Below, in pieces: positions 4,077 through 47,911 of a stretch of 64,000 nucleotides of DNA; the first letter of the stretch is position 1, and the number at the start of each line of letters is the position of its first letter. The notes under the pieces are model-generated. The model was given only the letters and a program-made list of their open reading frames with translations, did not search any database and was not told the origin of the DNA. Position numbers and translations under genes: made by a program. Location of the stretch: positions 1 to 64,000 of the forward strand of contig NZ_QYCP01000085.1 in assembly GCF_025506275.1 (NCBI RefSeq). The letters run 5' to 3'. The DNA is from Brevibacterium permense. GTDB taxonomy: Bacteria; Actinomycetota; Actinomycetes; Actinomycetales; Brevibacteriaceae.

Positions 4077-6275
4077 TCAGCGACGACGGCGACGTGAGAC
4101 GACCACCAAAGCACCACCGAGAGCGATTATCGCGGCAGCGATGCCGATGCTTGTGGCAACCTCGAGGCCTGTCCGCGGCAGATTGGCTCCGCCGCCGGCG
4201 CCGGCAGCCGAGTCATCTGCTTCGGCACCATCAGAGTTGCCGTCCATTGCGCCACCGTCGGAGGCGCCGTTCGTCGAATCATCGTCCTCGGCTGGTGCTC
4301 CTCCGACGTTGTCCTCTCCATCAGAGCTTCCGGAACTCCCGGAACCCGCGCAGTCGGAGGCCCCACCGGAATCGGACTCGCCACCGGCAGACGCATTCGC
4401 GCCTGCCTCGGCAGTGGCTTCGCCGGAGCTGTCGGAATCCTCGGCGCCATTGGAACCATCATCGTCTCCGCCTGGTGCACGGCTGCTGGTCACGACTTGC
4501 CAGTTCTCGTCGAAGAAGTCGGCGGGGTCGACGATCTGCTTCTCCTCTGCCCAGTCGATGAGTGCCTGACGCACCTCGACCTGTTCGTTGTAGACCTCTT
4601 TGAGCCCGTCGACGGGATAGCCGCCTCCACCGGACTGGCGATAGTTGTTGATGGCGAGAATGAACCGGTCATCGTCTCCGATTTCGCTGCCGTCAGACTG
4701 CGTGAGGTTCTCGATCCTCTCCCCGGTCGGTTTGGAGACATTGATGTCGTAGTCGATTCCGGCCAGAGCATCGTAGTTGTAGTCCGGGATCGGAGATTCT
4801 GAGACTTCGTCGATCGCGTTCGTGCCGTCGACCGGGTCGAACTCGGCGCCGTCCTCGGTCTGTTTGAAATAGCGTGCCGAGAATTCGAGGTAGTCGCGCA
4901 GTTGAGCACCGTTGATCTCGACACCGGCAAGAGTGTTGTCGTAGACGTAGAGTCCAGCCACATCGCGGATCGTGATGTCGCCGGCCGGGAACTCTGCGGT
5001 GCGGCTGAAGGGTGATGCCTGCGAGATCACGGGAAGTTCGGCATAGTCCGTTCCCTTCAGCCCTTCTTCAACCGTCTCGGTCTGGACGTGGGAGATGAAG
5101 TCGAGAATTGCCGAGTCTTCATAGTAGGAGGTCTTCGCCGATAGTGTTTCGGTGACCGATCCGATCTTCGTGTTCACGTAGTCGATCGTGGCCTGGTGCT
5201 GCTCATCGACGAGGTCTTTGACCTCCTGGTCCTCAGCGACCTCCCCTTGTGTGGCAAGAGCGTCTGCGTGCGGCGCGGTCTCGCCCCAGTCCACGTGGTG
5301 GGTGTCAAGGTTGATCGGCAGTCCCACCTCAGATACCGACCGTGCCCAATAGTTCGGTTGGGTGATGAGCACCTGGGTGCCGTCGTCACGGGTCACGACC
5401 TGACTGGGTTCGTTCTGATGAGTATGGCCGGCGACGAGGACATCAACTCCGGGCACTTTCGCTACCGAGGTGCTGACGTTCTCCTGCAGCTGGTCCGGAT
5501 CCCAGCTCTGTCCCTTAGGATCCTTGCCAGAGTGAGACAGTACGACGATGACGTCTGCGCCCTGCTGTTTCATCTCGGGCACGTACTTCTGTGCCGTCTC
5601 GACTGGATCGTCGAAGTGCACCTTCCCGGACAGGTTGTTCTTGTCCCAGATGCGGCTGCCGGGAGTGGTCACGCCGAGAACACCGACGGTGATCGTCTCA
5701 CCATCGACCTGCTTGTCGACCATCGCATACGGGTCCAAATGGGTCTGTCCGTCGGCATCGTCGACGACATTGGCTCCGAGCAGAGGAAAGTCGACCTGGT
5801 CGCGATAGGTGGCCAGCAGATCGAGGCCATAGTTGAATTCGTGGTTGCCGACGACCTGTGCGTCGTATCCCAGGTGGTTAAAGGTCTTGGCCAGAGGGTG
5901 AGTTTGGCCACTCGTCGTGATCGGCTCCTGTTTAGCGAAGTAGTAGGCCAATGGATTGCCTTGGATCGTGTCACCGTTGTCGACGAGTAGCACGGAATCG
6001 GCACCTTTGTCCTCGCGCACACCCTTGATGAGAGTCGAGGCCCGGGATATACCCAGCTCCTCCCCGGCCGGGTAGGGCTTGTTCGCGAAGTAGTCCCAGT
6101 TGAGCACGTTGCCGTGAACGTCGGTAGTCGCCAACAGAGTCAGTTCTCCGGTCGTCGCCGCCTGAGAGTCGGCAGGGGCATCGGCACCGCCGAGGCCGGT
6201 CGCGGAGGCGGCCGCGGGGGCGGTGACGATGAGAGCGAGGGCCAGTGTGGACGAGGTCAGGGGGCGCAGACGCAT
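4077..6275 (-). CDS. Cell-wall-anchored 5'-nucleotidase/2',3'-cyclic phosphodiesterase
   Basis: A 732-residue surface metallophosphoesterase. A signal peptide covers about 1-25. The N-terminal calcineurin-like domain carries the metal motifs TDVHGN (51-56), VDNGDTIQGN, GNHEFNYG, LSHSGKD and GHTHQNEP. The C-terminal 5'-nucleotidase substrate domain follows. A Gly/Asp/Ser-rich wall-spanning stretch leads to LPRTG (699-703), a hydrophobic helix and an RRRRR tail, a sortase signal. It probably releases nucleoside and phosphate from extracellular nucleotides. GGAG precedes the ATG. No sortase gene is in the window. Confidence 0.93.
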   Translation of the reverse strand: MRLRPLTSSTLALALIVTAPAAASATGLGGADAPADSQAATTGELTLLATTDVHGNVLNWDYFANKPYPAGEELGISRASTLIKGVREDKGADSVLLVDNGDTIQGNPLAYYFAKQEPITTSGQTHPLAKTFNHLGYDAQVVGNHEFNYGLDLLATYRDQVDFPLLGANVVDDADGQTHLDPYAMVDKQVDGETITVGVLGVTTPGSRIWDKNNLSGKVHFDDPVETAQKYVPEMKQQGADVIVVLSHSGKDPKGQSWDPDQLQENVSTSVAKVPGVDVLVAGHTHQNEPSQVVTRDDGTQVLITQPNYWARSVSEVGLPINLDTHHVDWGETAPHADALATQGEVAEDQEVKDLVDEQHQATIDYVNTKIGSVTETLSAKTSYYEDSAILDFISHVQTETVEEGLKGTDYAELPVISQASPFSRTAEFPAGDITIRDVAGLYVYDNTLAGVEINGAQLRDYLEFSARYFKQTEDGAEFDPVDGTNAIDEVSESPIPDYNYDALAGIDYDINVSKPTGERIENLTQSDGSEIGDDDRFILAINNYRQSGGGGYPVDGLKEVYNEQVEVRQALIDWAEEKQIVDPADFFDENWQVVTSSRAPGGDDDGSNGAEDSDSSGEATAEAGANASAGGESDSGGASDCAGSGSSGSSDGEDNVGGAPAEDDDSTNGASDGGAMDGNSDGAEADDSAAGAGGGANLPRTGLEVATSIGIAAAIIALGGALVVVSRRRRR

Positions 6276-6390
6276 GAGTCTCCAGAGAACTGGTCAAAGA
6301 GGGTGAAAGTGATCCAACTCTCTTACCCTAGTGGGCGCTGATCGTATTCTGAATGGATCTTGAGAGAAATTTGTACAAACTCTCTTGCGT

Positions 6391-7398
6391 TCACACTGTG
6401 GTGGAATCGGCTCCATCAGCCTCATCCTTCGCGGACGCAAATTTCGCCTCGACGATGATGAGGATGACGACGACGGCCGCGCCGAGGACCGCAAGTAAAA
6501 TCGGACCGAGTACCGGATCGACGGGGGCCAGCAGGCCGCCCGCTCCGTGTTGTTCGCCGTCGGCGCCCACCTCCGCAGGTGACTGCCACGGCCAGAGCGC
6601 GCGGAGGGAACCGAACATCAGACCTGCCATGACGATGAGGGTCCACCACCGGTGATTGTGCAGGAAGTATTTGAGGATGTTGACGAAGACCGCCAGGCCG
6701 AGGATCGCGCCGAGCATGAATATTCCGAGGTACCCGAAATCGCGCGAGTCGACGGCCCGCAGCGTGGTCGAGTACATGCCCACTGCCAGCAGGAAGAACG
6801 ATCCGGACACTCCTGGAACGACGAGTGCGCAGATGGCGATCGAGGCGACGAAGAAGACGGCGATGAGCGGTGGATTCTCCACGTCTGCCCCACCTGCCAG
6901 ACTCGTCATCCAGAATGCAAGAACAGCGGCGACGATGAACGCCAGAACGCCGAGGAGCACCGGCTGCCGTAAGGAACGGGCCGGCAACATCCTCAACGGC
7001 ACCGCTATGCTGGCGGCGACAAGACCGAAGAACAGACCCCGGGAGAGTTCGGGGTTGCTGGTGACGAAGCCTTCCATGACACCGGCGATGGTGAACACTG
7101 CCGCGCCCATGCCCAACAGAACAGGGATGACGAGGAACCAGTCGGTGCGCCGCAGTTCCGCCAGTGCCCCCGCGGCACGGTTCGGTCCCGTCACGAGGGT
7201 CTTCGCGGCCGAAACGACGTGAGATGCGGAGTCGATGAGCTGGTCGTACACTCCGGTGACCAAGGCGATGGTTCCGCCGGAGACCCCGGGCACGAGTTCG
7301 GCGCTGCCGATGAGGAAGCCCCGGATCAGGTCGAGCGGGAGGAGCGCTTTGGATCTCTTCGGCGCAGTGTCGGTATCGGTCGGCGGGGAGTTCGTCAT
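6391..7398 (-). CDS. DUF368 membrane protein, PopT-type polyprenyl-phosphate translocase
   Basis: A 335-residue integral membrane protein with about 8-9 hydrophobic segments. The family signature occurs twice as an internal duplication: IGSAELVPGVSGGTIAL near residues 32-48 and the second PGVSGSFFLL near 195. DUF368 proteins (PopT) were identified as transporters that recycle undecaprenyl phosphate across the membrane for wall synthesis. TAGGCT at 7406-7411 lies 7 nt before the ATG and the spacer is SD-like (GGAAGGT), so leaderless or SD-driven translation are both possible. It lies upstream of the 5'-nucleotidase gene on the same strand. Confidence 0.88.
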   Translation of the reverse strand: MTNSPPTDTDTAPKRSKALLPLDLIRGFLIGSAELVPGVSGGTIALVTGVYDQLIDSASHVVSAAKTLVTGPNRAAGALAELRRTDWFLVIPVLLGMGAAVFTIAGVMEGFVTSNPELSRGLFFGLVAASIAVPLRMLPARSLRQPVLLGVLAFIVAAVLAFWMTSLAGGADVENPPLIAVFFVASIAICALVVPGVSGSFFLLAVGMYSTTLRAVDSRDFGYLGIFMLGAILGLAVFVNILKYFLHNHRWWTLIVMAGLMFGSLRALWPWQSPAEVGADGEQHGAGGLLAPVDPVLGPILLAVLGAAVVVILIIVEAKFASAKDEADGADSTTV

Positions 7399-7442
7399 AC
7401 CTTCCAGCCTATTTGATCCACCGCGTGAAGATGAGTCGCGAC

Positions 7443-7961
7443 TCAGTCGCCGATCTCACCGTCGATGTCTTCGCGCAGGATGTCCGCATGACCTGCGTGC
7501 CGTGCGTACTCTTCGATGAGATGGATGAGGATCCATCGGACGTTGAACTTCTCTCCGTCACGATCTCCTCGTGCGGTGAGTGTGTCGAGGTCGACCACCT
7601 CGGCGAGGATTTCACGGGACTTCTGACAGGCCTGCTCGTGGTCATCCAGGAGCTCGTCCGCGGTCATCCCTGACGCCGACTCGAAATCCCAATCGCGGTC
7701 GCTGTTCCAGTCGACGCTCGACCACGGCTCCCCCAGTTCTCTGCCCTGCAGGACTTCGGCGAACCAGCTCTCCTCGACGAGTGTGAGATGGCGGAGGATG
7801 CCGCCGATCGTCAGAGACGATGAGGCCACGGTGTGGTTGAGCTGCTCGGGCGTCAGCCCGTCGACCTTGCGTCTGACCACCTGCCGGAAGTAGTCGACGA
7901 ATTCTTCGAGCCCGCGACGTTCGTTCGGGGCGTTGCTCGGATCGGTCAATGGCAGGTTCAT
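7443..7961 (-). CDS. DinB/DUF664 family protein
   Basis: A 172-residue DUF664 member of the DinB-like four-helix superfamily. Family marks are the helix LTIGGILRHLTLVEESWF and the C-terminal IEEYARHAGHADILRE, which supply the histidines that usually bind a metal. Relatives are mycothiol- or bacillithiol-dependent transferases and isomerases, but the substrate here is unknown. It lies downstream of the VOC gene on the same strand. Two further DinB-like genes occur in the window (39915-40496, 53531-54025). Confidence 0.85.
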   Translation of the reverse strand: MNLPLTDPSNAPNERRGLEEFVDYFRQVVRRKVDGLTPEQLNHTVASSSLTIGGILRHLTLVEESWFAEVLQGRELGEPWSSVDWNSDRDWDFESASGMTADELLDDHEQACQKSREILAEVVDLDTLTARGDRDGEKFNVRWILIHLIEEYARHAGHADILREDIDGEIGD

Positions 7962-41323: not shown

Positions 41324-41611
41324 TTGTCAGAGAGCAGCCGGGATATTCATCTGCGGATCGGACGGGAAGAACTCGTCATCCGCCAGCGCTACCAAGTCAT
41401 CAGCATCGCCAATGATGTGCTCATCGGTGCGTGGTTCCTCATCGGCAGCTTCATGTTCTTCTCCGACGCACTCATGACCACCGGAACATGGCTGTTCGTC
41501 ATCGGCAGTGTCGAGATGCTCATTCGCCCGGTCATCCGCCTCATCCGGCATCTGCACCTGCAGAGGCTGCGCAGCCCCGTGGCCGCCGGCGACGACTCCT
41601 TCGACTACTGA
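41324..41611 (+). CDS. YrhK-domain small membrane protein
   Basis: A 95-residue protein with two predicted membrane helices (about 29-47 and 52-70) and the YrhK signature IRQRYQVISIANDVLIGAWFL near the start. The start codon is TTG, with AGGAGAGG upstream. Function unknown. Its 3' end overlaps the convergent HXXEE gene by 71 nt. Confidence 0.8.
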   Translation: MSESSRDIHLRIGREELVIRQRYQVISIANDVLIGAWFLIGSFMFFSDALMTTGTWLFVIGSVEMLIRPVIRLIRHLHLQRLRSPVAAGDDSFDY

Positions 41612-42083
41612 CCGCGTTCGGCCAGTCAATGCGCACCGTGAGCTGAGCAGCCACCGCCACCGCACCCATCAGGGCGATGCCGCGCTTCCAGTCGGTGCCG
41701 GTCAGCGGGTGCCCCAGCTCCGCGAGCTCTCGTCGCGCCAGTACGGCCCCGGGCCACATGATCGGCACGGTGGTGATCACTCCGGCGGTATATCGTCGCA
41801 GGACTGCCGTCGACAGCAGGTGAGTGAACACGTGGGCTTCGAGGCCGGCGACCGTGGATCGATAGAGTGCGGACGTCCCTCGGGTCTGCATCCCCCGGAC
41901 ACCCGCCGCTGCCACAACCGCTCCGACGAGCCCGATCGCTGCCGCACTTTGGCGCGTGCTCATTCTCAGGGCCTCGATTCCGGAGACCTCGGCCAGGTGG
42001 TCGGCTGTGGCGGGAAAGGTCAGAGCTTCCTCCGCGTCGTGCAGGACCCAGGCCACGAACATGCTCACGGGTCCGCGCATCAT
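41541..42083 (-). CDS. HXXEE-motif membrane protein
   Basis: A 180-residue protein named for its HDAEEAL motif at residues 15-21 in the first hydrophobic segment, the mark of the HXXEE family of unknown function. About four to five membrane segments follow, and the tail is Arg-rich (SSRRSRRRRPR). The ATG at 42081-42083 has AGGAG 6 nt upstream. The last 71 nt overlap the end of the YrhK gene on the other strand. Confidence 0.8.
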   Translation of the reverse strand: MMRGPVSMFVAWVLHDAEEALTFPATADHLAEVSGIEALRMSTRQSAAAIGLVGAVVAAAGVRGMQTRGTSALYRSTVAGLEAHVFTHLLSTAVLRRYTAGVITTVPIMWPGAVLARRELAELGHPLTGTDWKRGIALMGAVAVAAQLTVRIDWPNAVSSRRSRRRRPRGCAASAGADAG

Positions 42084-42124
42084 GATCGCTCCTGTCACCT
42101 CTCGAGCTTCTGTTCACCATTCCA

Positions 42125-43540
42125 TCATGACCGGGCTCGGCCGTCGATAAGCCGCAGTCTGCGGTGCGCGAACTCGTTCGCCCAGCGCTGGTCGTGTGTG
42201 GTCGCCAGGACAGCACCTCCACGGTTGAGGAACGACTCGATGATCGCGTTCAGCCGGGTCATCGCTGCGAGATCCCGCCCGATCGTCGGTTCGTCGAGCA
42301 GCAGCACCGTCGCCTCGGTCATCAGCGCCGAGGCGATGACGATGTCTTTGCGTCGCGGCAAGTCGAGGTCGAAGGGATGGTCGTCGGCGACCTCGGTCAG
42401 GTGCGCTTCGGCGAGGACGGTGTCGACGTCGGCCCGGCGCTGGTCGCGGACTTTAGCTCGGTCTCGCCGTCGATGCGGCGGCAGCGGCGCGGCGTGGAGC
42501 AGTTCGCGTGCCACTGTGGCGGCGGAGAGCTGCAGTCCCGGATCCTGTCCCACCCATCCGAGGTGAGCACTGCGCGAGTGGGCGGGCAGGGTGTCCAATC
42601 GGATCATCTCGCCGAGGCGGCTGACCGTGATCGTGCCCGTCACGGACGCCGTCCGGTCGAGCAGGCCGAGGAGGGCCCGCAGTAGCGTGGACTTGCCGGC
42701 CCCGTTGGCACCGGTGACTGAGGTGAGTTCGCCGGGCCGCAGATCGAAGTCGAGGTCGTCGAGGATTCGGCTGCTCCCCCGATCCACGGTGAGGTCGCGA
42801 ACGGTGAGCAGCGGATCTGCCTGTGGCTTCGGCATCGTCGAGAGGGTCGCATCATCGTTCGGGCGGCTGTCCCAGATCCCGACGGCTCGACCCCTGGGAG
42901 TCGCCGTCTGCAGCCGACCGGCGTCGAGGAAGCGGACCTCTTCGCAGATCCGGGTCAGTTCGTCAGTCTGATGACCGGTGATCAGCACAGCCCCTCCCCG
43001 ATCACAGAATTCCTGCAGCACTGTTGCCAGGCGCACACGCATCTGCGGATCCAAGGACTGTGCTGGTTGGTCGAGAACGAGCAGGTCGGGCCCGGGTGCG
43101 AGGATCCGTGCCACCGCGACCAGTTGCCTCTGCCCTCCGGAGAGTGAGTCCAACCGTCGGTTCCATAGGTCTCCGATGCCGAGGACCTCGAGTAGGTTCC
43201 GGGCTCGGCGGAGGGCATCGGCCGGATCATGCCCGTGCAGTCGGCAGGCCAGTTGTGTCTCGTCACCGACGTGGCTGGTCATTCCGCTCAGTTGCGCTTC
43301 CGGGTCTTCGCCGAGCAGCGCCACGGTTCCATTCCGGTCGATGGTGCCGGTCAGGGCTCCGCGGGAGACGAGCTGTCCGGCCAACAGGCGGCAGAGAGTC
43401 GACGTTCCCGATCTTAGCGGTCCGAGCACTGCGGTCATGGTGCCGCTGACAACGTCGAGAGTGATTCCGCTCAGCGCGGCAGTGTCCTCTCCACGATAGG
43501 TGAACCACGCGTCCGTGATCGCAACGGTCATCTCAGGCAC
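42125..43540 (-). CDS. ECF transporter ATPase with two fused ABC domains, one degenerate
   Basis: A 471-residue fusion of two EcfA-type ABC ATPases. Domain 1 has an altered Walker A (GPLRSGTST, 40-48, Thr46 in place of Lys) and Walker B (LVLDQP, Gln158 in place of the catalytic Glu) but an intact signature LSGGQRQ (133-139). Domain 2 has intact Walker A (277-285) and Walker B (LLLDEP, D416/E417) but a lost signature (DLPRRKD, about 393-399). Only one composite ATP site can be canonical. GTG at 43540 or ATG at 43531 may be the start. It is the last gene of the operon. Confidence 0.93.
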   Translation of the reverse strand: MPEMTVAITDAWFTYRGEDTAALSGITLDVVSGTMTAVLGPLRSGTSTLCRLLAGQLVSRGALTGTIDRNGTVALLGEDPEAQLSGMTSHVGDETQLACRLHGHDPADALRRARNLLEVLGIGDLWNRRLDSLSGGQRQLVAVARILAPGPDLLVLDQPAQSLDPQMRVRLATVLQEFCDRGGAVLITGHQTDELTRICEEVRFLDAGRLQTATPRGRAVGIWDSRPNDDATLSTMPKPQADPLLTVRDLTVDRGSSRILDDLDFDLRPGELTSVTGANGAGKSTLLRALLGLLDRTASVTGTITVSRLGEMIRLDTLPAHSRSAHLGWVGQDPGLQLSAATVARELLHAAPLPPHRRRDRAKVRDQRRADVDTVLAEAHLTEVADDHPFDLDLPRRKDIVIASALMTEATVLLLDEPTIGRDLAAMTRLNAIIESFLNRGGAVLATTHDQRWANEFAHRRLRLIDGRARS

Positions 43541-44372
43541 CGCCGATCAGCTGCGCGGCGCCCGGCAGCGGGAGGACTCCCGTCACCGAGGCGACGATGA
43601 GTCCGATGGTCACGAGCGGAGTAAGGATCCGCAGGAGGCTCTGCCCTGTCTCGTCCGTGTGATCCTGGAGCGCAGTCGCGGTCGCGTTCGAATTGAGTCC
43701 GCTGGATTCGAGTACGTCGTGACGTTGGTCGACGGTCAGCAGGATCGCGGTGACGAGTCCTGTAACGATTCCCGGCAGCAGTCGGATGCGCACCCGCCAG
43801 GAGTCGGTGGCCCAGCCGCGGGCCTGTCTGGCTTCGATGATATGTCGGGTGCGTGCGCCGATCATTGGGATGAGACCGATGGCAGAGGCGCACATATAGG
43901 CGACTGCCGAGGGCAGCCGAAGTCGACGCAGACCGTCGAAGAGGCGGGCGGAGTCGGCACCCGGACCGAACAGCGCGCACAGCCCGATCAAGGCGCTCAC
44001 CCGCAGCCAGATCTGGACGGCGATGCTCAGTCCTTCGACGCTGAGGCGAGCGGGTCCGACCTGCCAGAGCACATGCACATCGGTTCCGGGGTAGAACAGC
44101 CCCTGCACGACGATGAGCACAACCAGAGTCGGTAGGCACAGGAGACCTACTGTCATCACCCATGCCCGCAGTCGCACGACGTGTGAGAGTGTCACGGTCA
44201 CGACCGTGCCGGTCAGGATGATGACCGGCACGATCGGCGAGGGGATTCCGAAGACGAGCAGCAGGCTGCAGGCCAGGATGATCAATTCTGTGGCAGGGTG
44301 CAGACGACGCTTCGGGCGGTGAGACTCAGCCGCGTCAACAGCGGTGTGCGTGTCGGAAGAGGCGGGACTCAT
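43533..44372 (-). CDS. ECF transporter T component (CbiQ/EcfT family)
   Basis: A 279-residue membrane scaffold with about five to six helices. The cytoplasmic coupling motifs are ARQARGW and the preceding Arg-rich helix (ARTRHIIEARQARGW), which contact the ATPase. It starts in a 4-nt overlap with the S gene and ends 8 nt inside the ATPase frame. It links substrate binding in the S component to ATP hydrolysis. Confidence 0.9.
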   Translation of the reverse strand: MSPASSDTHTAVDAAESHRPKRRLHPATELIILACSLLLVFGIPSPIVPVIILTGTVVTVTLSHVVRLRAWVMTVGLLCLPTLVVLIVVQGLFYPGTDVHVLWQVGPARLSVEGLSIAVQIWLRVSALIGLCALFGPGADSARLFDGLRRLRLPSAVAYMCASAIGLIPMIGARTRHIIEARQARGWATDSWRVRIRLLPGIVTGLVTAILLTVDQRHDVLESSGLNSNATATALQDHTDETGQSLLRILTPLVTIGLIVASVTGVLPLPGAAQLIGGA

Positions 44373-45247
44373 TCCGCCGGCTGTGCCGATTCGGCCTGAT
44401 TGTTTAGATCAGGGCCGTCGGTCTTCTTCGTCCGGGGCCGGCTATGGGCGGCGAACTCGTAGCGACCGATGATGCGTTTGGGCAGCGACTGGATCACGAC
44501 ATAGGCGAGGACGAAGATGAGCGCCTTGTCGACGATGTCGGAGACCATGCTCTGAGCGAAGGTGGCGTTGAACATCTCGAGTCCTACCGCTTGGAGGATC
44601 GCGACGACTCCCCCGGTGCCGGCCCCCAGCCCGCCGCCGAAGACATAGGCGGCGACGGGTGCTCCGATGGCGCCGGCGGGAACACCGGCGACGGCGCCGA
44701 CGATGATCGCGGTCCAGGGTGTGCGGAAGACTCCGAGCCTTGCTGCCCAGCCGGCGGCGGCGCCGATGAAGGCGGCACCGGAGCTGAAGGCGATGACGCT
44801 GGGGCTCAGGGTCACGCCCCAGATGAGGTTCGAGATGATTCCCGTGAAGGCACCTGCTGCGGGGCCCGCCAGGACGCCGATGAGCACGGTTCCGATGGAG
44901 TCGAGGTAGAGGGGCACGGGTGTGTAGTTGCCGATGATCTGCCCGATGACGACGTTGAAGGCGATGGCGACCGGGATGAGCGCGAGAACGCTGCGAGGAA
45001 TGAGCGGGAGAGTGCCTGCGGCGAGCAGAATGCCTCCGCCGAGATAGCCGAGCATGACCCACAGAGTGGTGTATCCGAGGTCGAGGCCGAGGTTGGCAGG
45101 CTGGGTGAGGAGTACGGCGACGTAGGTGCCGATGACGATGAGGGCGCCGAGCAGTGTGAGGACGAGGGGAAGAGTGCTGTTGCGGTTTTGTCCGGGACCG
45201 ACCGTAGTGGTCGGCCCCTGCCCAGACTGTCTGGAGTGTGCGGTCAT
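44369..45247 (-). CDS. ECF transporter S component, substrate possibly nucleoside or base
   Basis: A 292-residue membrane protein with about six to eight helices and the S-component pattern IPVAIAFNVVIGQIIGNYTPVPLYLDSIGT and GAFTGIISNLIWG. Its start overlaps the nucleoside hydrolase stop (ATGA). The specificity is not readable from sequence; cotranscription with the hydrolase suggests a nucleoside or nucleobase. The longer frame to 45670 is a shadow of the upstream gene. Confidence 0.88.
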   Translation of the reverse strand: MTAHSRQSGQGPTTTVGPGQNRNSTLPLVLTLLGALIVIGTYVAVLLTQPANLGLDLGYTTLWVMLGYLGGGILLAAGTLPLIPRSVLALIPVAIAFNVVIGQIIGNYTPVPLYLDSIGTVLIGVLAGPAAGAFTGIISNLIWGVTLSPSVIAFSSGAAFIGAAAGWAARLGVFRTPWTAIIVGAVAGVPAGAIGAPVAAYVFGGGLGAGTGGVVAILQAVGLEMFNATFAQSMVSDIVDKALIFVLAYVVIQSLPKRIIGRYEFAAHSRPRTKKTDGPDLNNQAESAQPAE

Positions 45248-46404
45248 GCGGGTGGTCCTTTCATCAGGATAGTGCTGAGGTGGTCGAGGAAGGCAGGAGC
45301 GTCGATGGCGCGGATGATCTCTGCATTCACGGGCCGGCCCCACCGCCCCAGCCAATCGGCGACGGTTTCGCCTCGTGTGAGTGTACCCGTGAGTTCGACA
45401 TCGACAGGTGCCCACAGCGTCGACGCCCATGGCAGGTCCCCCGCAATTCCCCTCACGGGTACCGGGGCGGACGCCTCCCGGGCGTCGGAGTCCGATCCGT
45501 CGGGCTCGGTTCCGGTCGACGCAGTGGTGTGCTGTCGCGCCCAGGACAGGGCACAGGCGAGAACGAACGGGTCGTGGATGTGGGCAAGGTAGCCGAGTCC
45601 ATCGGATTCGTGGAATTCGAAGTAGAAACGGAGCGCCTCGGCCAGTTGTGCGAGGACAGATCGCCAGCACTCATCGGCACGATTGGCAGAGGCTCCGTCG
45701 AGGATGTCGGCGAGACGCTCGGGTGTCATCTCAACGGCTTCGGTCGCTTCGATCGGGGCGATGACCGGGAGGTGGGCCAGTCTCTCCTCCTGATTGGTGC
45801 GGTCGAAAGCGGCGAGCACCTGGGCGGTGGACTCGGGGTCGAAGGTGACGTTCCATTCCGTCGTCGGGTGGGTGTTACCCCGGTAGTTGAACGCTCCACC
45901 CATGATGAAGAGACGATTGAACAGACTCGGCAGATCCGGGTCGATCTCGAGAGCCAGGGCAAGATTCGTGGCTGGACCGATGACGACACCGAGGAGCTGT
46001 CCGGGATGGGCGTGGGCAGCATCGACCCAGGCCTGAGCAGCTGTTACCGAGCTCACCGGCCCGCTCGGGGTCGGCAGCCGCGCATATCCCCGCCCGGTCT
46101 CGCCATGGGTGAGGTCGGCATATTCCATGGCTTCGCCCGTTCCCGTCTCCGATGACTGCGGATCCATCTGCAGGGCCTGCCGTGCCAGCGGAAGACTGTG
46201 GCCGGCGTGGACGGGAATGTCGCTGCGCCCGGCCAGCGACAGCCATCCGCGGGTGTTCTCGACGACTTGTGCGGCGGCGACATTGCCTCCGGATGCGGCG
46301 ATGCCGACAACGTCGACGTCGTCTTGGCAACACAGGTAGGCCAGTGCAATAGCATCGTCGATTCCGGGGTCGCAGTCGAGGAAGAGCGGCAGAGTGGCAG
46401 GCAT
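45244..46404 (-). CDS. Inosine-uridine-preferring nucleoside hydrolase
   Basis: A 386-residue nucleoside hydrolase that splits N-ribosidic bonds to base and ribose. The calcium-binding signature DCDPGIDDA is at 10-18, NVAAAQVVENT and MGGAFNYRGN follow, and the C-terminal HIHDPFVLA supplies the catalytic histidine and Asp. It is about 70 residues longer than the typical 310, mostly a Ser/Thr/Asp-rich insert before the end. CAGAAT lies 6 nt upstream of the ATG. It heads the ECF operon. Confidence 0.92.
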   Translation of the reverse strand: MPATLPLFLDCDPGIDDAIALAYLCCQDDVDVVGIAASGGNVAAAQVVENTRGWLSLAGRSDIPVHAGHSLPLARQALQMDPQSSETGTGEAMEYADLTHGETGRGYARLPTPSGPVSSVTAAQAWVDAAHAHPGQLLGVVIGPATNLALALEIDPDLPSLFNRLFIMGGAFNYRGNTHPTTEWNVTFDPESTAQVLAAFDRTNQEERLAHLPVIAPIEATEAVEMTPERLADILDGASANRADECWRSVLAQLAEALRFYFEFHESDGLGYLAHIHDPFVLACALSWARQHTTASTGTEPDGSDSDAREASAPVPVRGIAGDLPWASTLWAPVDVELTGTLTRGETVADWLGRWGRPVNAEIIRAIDAPAFLDHLSTILMKGPPA

Positions 46405-46431: not shown

Positions 46432-46890
46432 TCACCACCGTCGGATGCGGGCCCAGTTTCCGCAGGCTTGAGTGGATCCCCGTCTCACAAGTCGACAGCA
46501 GAGGTAGAGCTTCGTCGAGGGAGGTTCGTCGATTCCGAACCTTTCTCTCATGTCGATGGCTTCCTCACTGCCGAAGGGAGTGCCGATGAGCTCGCCGAAC
46601 GGCATGCTGGTGATCCACGGTTTGGCGGCGAAGGTGAAGGCGTTGAGGAACATTTCACAGTCACAGCAGCAGGCACCCATGCTGCTCAGCCGCGCGAGCA
46701 GTGCCGTGGCGCGTGGAGCCGTACGGTCGCGGAAGCCTTCCGCGAACCTGTGGGTGCCGTTGCAGCCGTATTCGCCGAGTTGTCGGAACACGTAGCAGGC
46801 CAGGCATTCGCCGGGGCGCGGGGCGAAGACACGGGCGGTCTCCTCGTCGATGATCGTTCTGACGTCGTTGTCAATGGTGTTCTTGTCCAT
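46432..46890 (-). CDS. DUF2695 protein, cysteine-rich
   Basis: A 152-residue protein with a DUF2695-like core: YGCNGTHRFAEGF and MGACCCDCEMFLNAF. It has at least nine cysteines (CLACY, CCCDC, LCCRL, ACG), so zinc or cluster binding is likely. The ATG at 46888-46890 was preferred over the GTG two codons earlier. It lies 27 nt upstream of the nucleoside hydrolase on the same strand and may be the first gene of that operon. Function unknown. Confidence 0.78.
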   Translation of the reverse strand: MDKNTIDNDVRTIIDEETARVFAPRPGECLACYVFRQLGEYGCNGTHRFAEGFRDRTAPRATALLARLSSMGACCCDCEMFLNAFTFAAKPWITSMPFGELIGTPFGSEEAIDMRERFGIDEPPSTKLYLCCRLVRRGSTQACGNWARIRRW

Positions 46891-47008
46891 GGCCACACGG
46901 TTCCAGACGGCACTGACACGAAAAGCGGTCGATTGACTGAATTCCCCGATTTCCGTCCTATTTTCTCAGGTCGCGCCGGTGGAAGTCTTTCACCTTAGAA
47001 TCGTGCCC

Positions 47009-47911
47009 ATGAGTATTCTCGTCATCGGTGAGGCCCTCATCGACATCGTCAGCACGCCGGGGAGTCCGGACCGCTACGCACCGGGTGGAGCTCCAGCCAA
47101 TGTCGCTCTCGGGCTGGGCCGCCTCGGCGACGACGTCGAGTTCCTCACCGATGTCGGCGATGATTTCCACGGCGGGTTCCTTCTCGCTCATCTTCAGGAG
47201 TCTCAGGTCGCCGTGCTCGCTTCACCACGTGGCGCCACGTCGACAGCGCTGGCTCGCCTCGCCGATGATGGCTCGGCCGAGTACGAGTTCCACTTGCGGT
47301 GGGATCCTGACTCTTCCCTGCTCAAGGAGGCGTCTCACTCTGTAGTTCATGTCGGTTCGATTGCGGCATTTCTCTCACCGGGCGCCGCCGTCATCGATGA
47401 TGTTCTCGCCTCTGTGACAGGCGTTTCCGACACGCATCTTCGTCCGCTCATCTCCTTCGATCCGAATATCCGACCGTCGATCATCGGCGCCCGCGAGGAT
47501 GCGCTGCCACGGTTCGAGGAGTTGGCGAGTCGAGTCGATGTTCTCAAACTCAGCGATATCGATGCGGACTGGCTCTATCCCGATCTCGACGAGTCCGCAC
47601 AGGTCAACCGTCTTCTCAGCCTCGGGGCCAATCTGGTCGCCATGACTCGCGGTGGTGAGGGTGCGATCGTGGCGACCGCCTCGGCGCGGGCATCGGTGAC
47701 CTCGAAGAAGGTGGAAGTCAAAGACACGATCGGGGCCGGGGATACGTTCATGGTCTCGCTCATCCACGACCTGAATGCACAGGAGAACGCTGTGTCCGGT
47801 CTCAGCACGGCAGAACTCACAGCCCTGGGAGATCGTGCATCGGCGCTTGCGGCGATCACGGTCAGCCGTGAGGGTGCGGATCTGCCGTGGGCCGCGGATC
47901 TCACGAACTGA
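47009..47911 (+). CDS. PfkB family sugar kinase (fructokinase-like)
   Basis: A 300-residue ribokinase-fold kinase. GEALIDIV at the start, PGGAPANVALGLGRLG (substrate lid) and the C-terminal DTIGAGDTFM (catalytic aspartate and anion hole) are PfkB signatures; the N-terminal pattern is closest to fructokinases. It phosphorylates a sugar with ATP. TAGAAT at 46996-47001 lies 7 nt before the ATG, a leaderless start. It overlaps the convergent AHSA1 gene by 11 nt. Confidence 0.93.
   Translation: MSILVIGEALIDIVSTPGSPDRYAPGGAPANVALGLGRLGDDVEFLTDVGDDFHGGFLLAHLQESQVAVLASPRGATSTALARLADDGSAEYEFHLRWDPDSSLLKEASHSVVHVGSIAAFLSPGAAVIDDVLASVTGVSDTHLRPLISFDPNIRPSIIGAREDALPRFEELASRVDVLKLSDIDADWLYPDLDESAQVNRLLSLGANLVAMTRGGEGAIVATASARASVTSKKVEVKDTIGAGDTFMVSLIHDLNAQENAVSGLSTAELTALGDRASALAAITVSREGADLPWAADLTN

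Follow-up and report, generated by a model that had tools for sequence, protein, structure and literature searches.

Degenerate ATP sites in ABC proteins are known mainly from exporters and CFTR, and in Pdr5, MRP1 and CFTR the degenerate site has been proposed to act as a fixed, ATP-holding hinge. CFTR, the ABCC family, TM287/288 and MsRv1273c/72c have a degenerate site 1 and a consensus site 2 in their NBD pair, and most of them keep the Walker A lysine. In the ABC sandwich, the signature of each domain lies opposite the Walker A, Q-loop, Walker B and H-loop motifs of its partner, and in the degenerate NBS1 of yeast Pdr5 the Walker A lysine is replaced by Cys and the catalytic glutamate by Asn, while the signature reads LNVEQ (PMC7756269). 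Canonical ECF modules (L. delbrueckii EcfAA'T; the CbiO dimer, 5x40) have two EcfA NBDs, a CbiQ-type EcfT and an S component. Mutating either one of the two catalytic glutamates of the L. delbrueckii module to Gln was enough to abolish ATPase activity and transport, and ECF structures published in 2023 suggest that hydrolysis is non-synchronous (PMC10368641). Since L. delbrueckii needs both glutamates, the function of an ECF module with one site cannot be taken for granted. The literature searched, which was covered in part, yielded no report of a degenerate ECF site, and this is weak evidence of absence.

The ECF locus described here lies in a window of 64,000 nucleotides from Brevibacterium permense (contig NZ_QYCP01000085.1) and has the same set of components as the canonical modules, with a candidate S component (Table 1). 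The genes are in the order nucleoside hydrolase, S, T and A, they overlap, and ecfA is the last. This operon was intact in 25/25 mapped clade loci, including those of other genera, with the EcfT gene adjoining ecfA in every one of them, and the position of the S-component gene was conserved across all mapped loci. A domain search found two PF00005 stretches in EcfA, which also matches the ECF_ATPase_1/2 models with scores below the full-length cut-offs of those models. In B. permense the gene starts with GTG at 43540, and the ATG at 43531 corresponds to the start in the orthologues. No riboswitch was matched by Rfam models in the 36-50 kb region, and a promoter and terminator scan gave no signal above that of shuffled sequences. 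In nearly all loci of the genus the operon is flanked by the DUF2695 gene and by a divergently oriented gene for a PfkB-type sugar kinase; neither of them flanks the operons of other genera. In several genomes of the genus a gene for an HXXEE-domain protein is found 3' of ecfA.

Table 1. Genes of the ECF locus and motifs of EcfA (positions in the window)
Feature	Position	Strand	Remarks
HXXEE-domain protein	41541-42098	minus	3' of ecfA
ecfA, fused two-NBD ECF ATPase, 471 aa	42125-43540	minus	two ABC domains (ORF, translation, Pfam)
ecfT, CbiQ family	43533-44372	minus	PF02361, E=4.1e-18
Candidate S component, CD3073-like	44369-45247	minus	NF045596, 108 bits (curated cut-off 180)
Inosine-uridine-type nucleoside hydrolase (IUNH)	45244-46404	minus	PF01156, E=2e-73; first gene of conserved operon
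DUF2695 protein	46432-46896	minus	upstream of operon; position conserved within genus only
PfkB-type sugar kinase	46979-47911	plus	divergent
NBD1 Walker A GPLRSGTST, residues 40-48	43397-43423	minus	site I; Thr46 (43403-43405) in place of Lys
NBD1 Q-loop LGEDPEAQL	43289-43315	minus	site I; Glu78 in place of Gln; Asp in most orthologues
NBD1 signature LSGGQ, residues 133-137	43130-43144	minus	site II; canonical
NBD1 Walker B LLVLDQ	43067-43084	minus	site I; Gln158 (43067-43069) in place of catalytic Glu
NBD1 H-loop His190	42971-42973	minus	site I; kept in orthologue clade, missing in many relatives
NBD2 Walker A GANGAGKST, Lys283	42686-42712	minus	site II; canonical
NBD2 Q-loop Gln332	42545-42547	minus	site II; canonical
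NBD2 signature region L392-DLPRRKD399	42344-42367	minus	site I; in place of LSGGQ; Arg397-Lys398-Asp399 invariant in clade
NBD2 Walker B VLLLDE, Glu417	42290-42307	minus	site II; canonical
NBD2 H-loop His449	42194-42196	minus	site II; canonical

The original prediction, made from the letters of the DNA, was that EcfA has lost the Walker A lysine and the catalytic glutamate of NBD1 and the signature of NBD2 (about residues 393-399), that LSGGQ of NBD1 and Walker A and DE of NBD2 are kept, and that all these defects fall in one composite site while the other is canonical. The translation agrees with it at each of these points, residue numbers included. We refer to the NBD1 Walker motifs, Q-loop and H-loop together with the NBD2 signature as site I, and to the NBD2 Walker motifs, Q-loop and H-loop together with LSGGQ of NBD1 as site II. 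A fourth defect, Glu78 in the Q-loop of NBD1, had been overlooked, and the four defects (Thr46, Glu78, Gln158 and the NBD2 signature) are confined to site I. The rest of the NBD1 nucleotide site is still present, namely, Gly40, Gly45, Ser47, Thr48, the Walker B Asp157 and His190. The dead site of Pdr5 is made up in the same way, of NBD1 Walker motifs and the NBD2 signature, and is altered in all its motifs, yet Pdr5 is functional with it; this makes Pdr5 the closest functional parallel, although Pdr5 is a PDR exporter with its own TMDs, has no ECF architecture and has lost the H-loop histidine that EcfA of B. permense keeps. CFTR, the ABCC proteins, TM287/288 and MsRv1273c/72c are likewise exporters or a channel, whereas the B. 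permense system is a predicted S-T-A importer. In contrast to the L. delbrueckii module, where both catalytic glutamates are needed (PMC10368641), site I here has lost Lys, Gln and Glu as well as the signature of the partner domain.

A structure model of the chain as an intramolecular dimer was in line with this assignment. The AlphaFold2 model of EcfA (mean pLDDT 90, pTM 0.84) can be superposed along both domains on two-NBD chains with bound ATP, namely, that of DppABCD (8wdb_D; Z 31.9, 439 residues, 3.3 A) and E1371Q CFTR (8v7z; Z 31.0, 401 residues, 3.1 A), while CbiO (5x40_A) aligns to NBD1 with a Z of 29.1. A sequence search of the PDB found no solved relative closer than generic two-NBD ABC proteins. 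Since the model superposes on closed ATP-bound pairs, the Walker motifs of NBD1 are predicted to face the signature region of NBD2. In the model, Thr46, Glu78 and Gln158 would thus share site I with the lost NBD2 signature, and Lys283, Gln332, Glu417 and His449 would make up site II with LSGGQ of NBD1.

An orthologue of EcfA was found in 35 of the 57 genomes of the genus and, outside the genus, in Leucobacter musarum (L047) and in at least two further Micrococcales genomes of different families (L038 and L040). A scan of genome contigs gave mostly generic ABC proteins, with one new orthologue (from Leucobacter), the protein L049 and outgroup proteins. Conservation of the pattern in a clade had been named as a check on the prediction, and close homologues with an intact lysine as evidence against it; in an alignment of 34 orthologues from the genus, Leucobacter and other Micrococcales, the Walker A lysine was kept in none (mostly Thr, also Ala, Ile or Leu) and the Q-loop glutamine of NBD1 was replaced by Asp or Glu in all. 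Gln158 was present in 33/34, the exception being L034 which keeps Glu, SGG of the NBD2 signature was missing in 34/34, and site II was canonical in all 34. When the motif columns were left out of the alignment, the ATPase tree joined the 34 orthologues in one clade with 100% SH-aLRT support and a long stem. One genome of the genus (G023) has a copy (L039/L045) that groups on this tree with Leucobacter and G123, and not with the rest of the genus, and is without the usual flanking genes, so that horizontal transfer is possible.

As an outgroup, 65 other fused ECF ATPases from Actinobacteria and Firmicutes were used, mostly 30-38% identical. These proteins have the same two-NBD fusion but, unlike the orthologue clade, all of them keep the NBD1 lysine and the NBD1 glutamate (65/65 for both). 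The second glycine of the NBD2 signature was kept in 64/65, and the exception, L049, is a member of the wider family described below. The degenerate pattern was thus seen in 0/64 fused ECF ATPases outside that family. Within the clade the replacement residues are themselves conserved among orthologues down to 47% identity to the B. permense protein, with T46 in 17/20, D or E78 in 20/20, Q158 in 19/20, H190 in 20/20 and RKD in 20/20, although canonical relatives, too, usually have a basic residue or Gln at positions 397 and 398, and only Asp399 is clearly new. Whole-domain dN/dS between close relatives was low in both domains and high chiefly in the linker; the better-resolved pairs gave about 0.18-0.28 (NBD1) and 0.17-0.39 (NBD2), and the estimates are noisy for pairs in which synonymous changes are few. 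Modal conservation was 0.70 for NBD1 and 0.69 for NBD2. NBD1 is thus under purifying selection, as NBD2 is.

A search with the S component identified further operons with related S, T and A proteins in other families of the Micrococcales and in one other family of the class, nearly all of which also hold a nucleoside hydrolase gene. The wider family as sampled comprises 48 loci, and almost all of them are nucleoside hydrolase, S, T and A operons. No canonical member was seen among these 48 loci, a sample that, being based on S, may miss canonical family members. All but one of the 48 have lost the NBD2 signature, and in the further operons it is replaced by many different sequences: LPASQ, LPASG, LPASA, LPASR, LPSSK, LPAAR, LSMSE, LVPVE, LTLSQ, LGFVQ, LPFAV, LSPTE, LSPAD/E, LPLSV, LPFSR and LTRGE. 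In relatives that share the S component and the hydrolase this was usually the only loss, the NBD1 lysine and glutamate each being kept in 19/22. NBD1 is more heavily altered in L272, with Thr for Lys and DD for DE, in L273, with DN and a disrupted P-loop, and in L275, with EH and a P-loop that is nearly deleted, while in L271 Walker A reads GGRSSGKTA with the lysine kept; the H-loop histidine is absent from many family members. In eight loci (L224, L225 and L276-L281) the ATPases are two separate genes, and there the signature loss sits in the second. The claim that the asymmetry is unusual for an ECF module therefore holds against ECF modules at large but not within the family of this S component, where it is common. 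Two S genes, L198 (G038, 6342-7642) and L274 (G201, 5983-6931), are each split over two frames that overlap, which points to a frameshift or an error of sequencing in these genomes. Seven weak CD3073-like S homologues (L222, L223, L226 and L230-L233) have no EcfA/EcfT-like pair within about 6 kb and are orphan S proteins or belong to a different family.

The changes were counted by parsimony over the 48 loci at seven positions of site I and seven matched positions of site II on a tree of the S component and so independently of the ATPase. The placement of some long basal branches in this tree is weak, and the contrast between the sites does not depend on them. Site I had 227 non-canonical cells and 65 letter changes, against one cell and one change in site II (binomial p = 2e-18, a descriptive value because independent changes are assumed). 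The canonical residue was left in site I in 19 of the 48 loci at K46, 18 at Q78, 21 at E158, 34 at H190, 14 at S393, two at G394 and one at G395; in site II six positions were canonical in 48/48 and the seventh, G135, in 47/48. Loss of the NBD2 signature probably came first because it is common to the sampled family members, and it would date to their ancestor. The Walker A lysine and Q-loop glutamine would have gone next, on the branch to the orthologue clade, and the glutamate last, in most of that clade; this order is based on the signature-only relatives and on two loci inside the clade, L044 and L200, in which the lysine is gone and Glu158 is kept. The NBD1 Walker residues appear to have been lost more than once, lineage by lineage. 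Such intermediates rule out a simultaneous origin of the three defects. Of the claim of co-evolved asymmetry rather than random decay, the one-sidedness and the conservation in a clade stand, and the joint origin does not. What is seen looks like the progressive and repeated erosion of a site already freed from catalysis, together with conserved replacements in the orthologue clade.

These sequences are best read as those of an ECF module that has a single hydrolytic site and resembles Pdr5 or CFTR in function. We propose, with a probability of about 0.78, that the operon codes for a dedicated group I-type ECF importer, likely for a nucleoside, whose asymmetric motor hydrolyses ATP at site II alone while site I is dead. 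The two NBDs would pair in the usual head-to-tail sandwich, and one ATP per cycle, bound by Walker A and B of NBD2 and LSGGQ of NBD1, would close the dimer and expel the S component; its hydrolysis would reopen and reset the dimer. Site I, catalytically dead, would in the orthologue clade probably hold a nucleotide loosely or statically and serve as a hinge, because the P-loop scaffold, the Walker B aspartate, the H-loop histidine and, in most clade members, the A-loop tyrosine of site I remain. Such binding cannot be needed family-wide since the P-loop of L275 is nearly gone, which suggests that one lineage, at the least, does without it. The natural E158Q of the orthologue clade is the same kind of change as the L. 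delbrueckii E-to-Q mutations, yet it is tolerated.

The conserved replacements argue for a retained role of site I in the orthologue clade, and we tentatively suggest that the whole family runs on a single catalytic site with one ATP per cycle, and that in the clade the dead site was rebuilt from Thr46, Asp/Glu78, Gln158 and Arg397-Lys398-Asp399 of the other domain as a non-catalytic nucleotide or hinge site, serving regulation or as a hinge. It is also possible, and we say so with the same reserve, that site I is a vestige which has drifted neutrally since the signature was lost, NBD1 being kept for LSGGQ, contact with EcfT and the fold. The varied, lineage-specific losses in L272, L273, L275 and several H-loops are what drift predicts, but drift would also have scattered the clade replacements instead of conserving them, and the low dN/dS of the whole NBD1 domain speaks against it.

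That EcfA is a pseudo-ATPase, or part of a dead transporter that has lost hydrolysis and taken on another role, is very improbable: three of the four key NBD1 residues are gone, but site II is nearly invariant and the operon is intact and conserved. The prediction had also allowed for assembly errors. For ecfA, nothing was found in favour of an assembly or sequencing error or of gene decay in a single strain, and both are ruled out by the recurrence of the same states, in one open frame, in dozens of independent genomes and in 34 orthologues of different genomes. As proposed here, the family consists of naturally occurring ECF motors with one site disabled by degrees, from the signature only, through loss of the lysine, to no P-loop, and it extends degenerate ATP sites to ECF importers. 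Because the other site is intact throughout, transport on one ATP by toppling of the S component becomes directly testable in this graded series, which bears on the number of ATP sites required by an ECF motor and on whether the two hydrolysis events differ.

Judging from the neighbouring hydrolase, the substrate is most likely a nucleoside or nucleoside-like compound which is then split by that enzyme. The best matches of the hydrolase are to the RihA/RihC/UriH models, and therefore nucleosides are suggested. CD3073 was the only S model matched in NCBIfam and Pfam; no QrtT/QueT-type S component was matched in these collections. A search with the S component in 17 mostly Firmicutes genomes gave no match and is uninformative about the Clostridioides CD3073 systems. 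Queuosine or queuine was also considered as the substrate, with a QueK-like hydrolase, because QueT and QrtT are ECF S components for queuosine and QueK is a nucleoside hydrolase (PMC11130926), and because TGT is present in 53 of the 57 genomes of the genus while a clear QueC was found in one (G030). This seems unlikely: the presence of TGT does not follow that of the operon, RihA/RihC/UriH are the models that fit the hydrolase best, and the S component matches CD3073 and not QueT or QrtT. The distribution of TGT and QueC does not in itself tell queuosine from ordinary nucleosides as the substrate. With TGT common and QueC nearly absent, members of the genus probably import queuine or one of its precursors for salvage.
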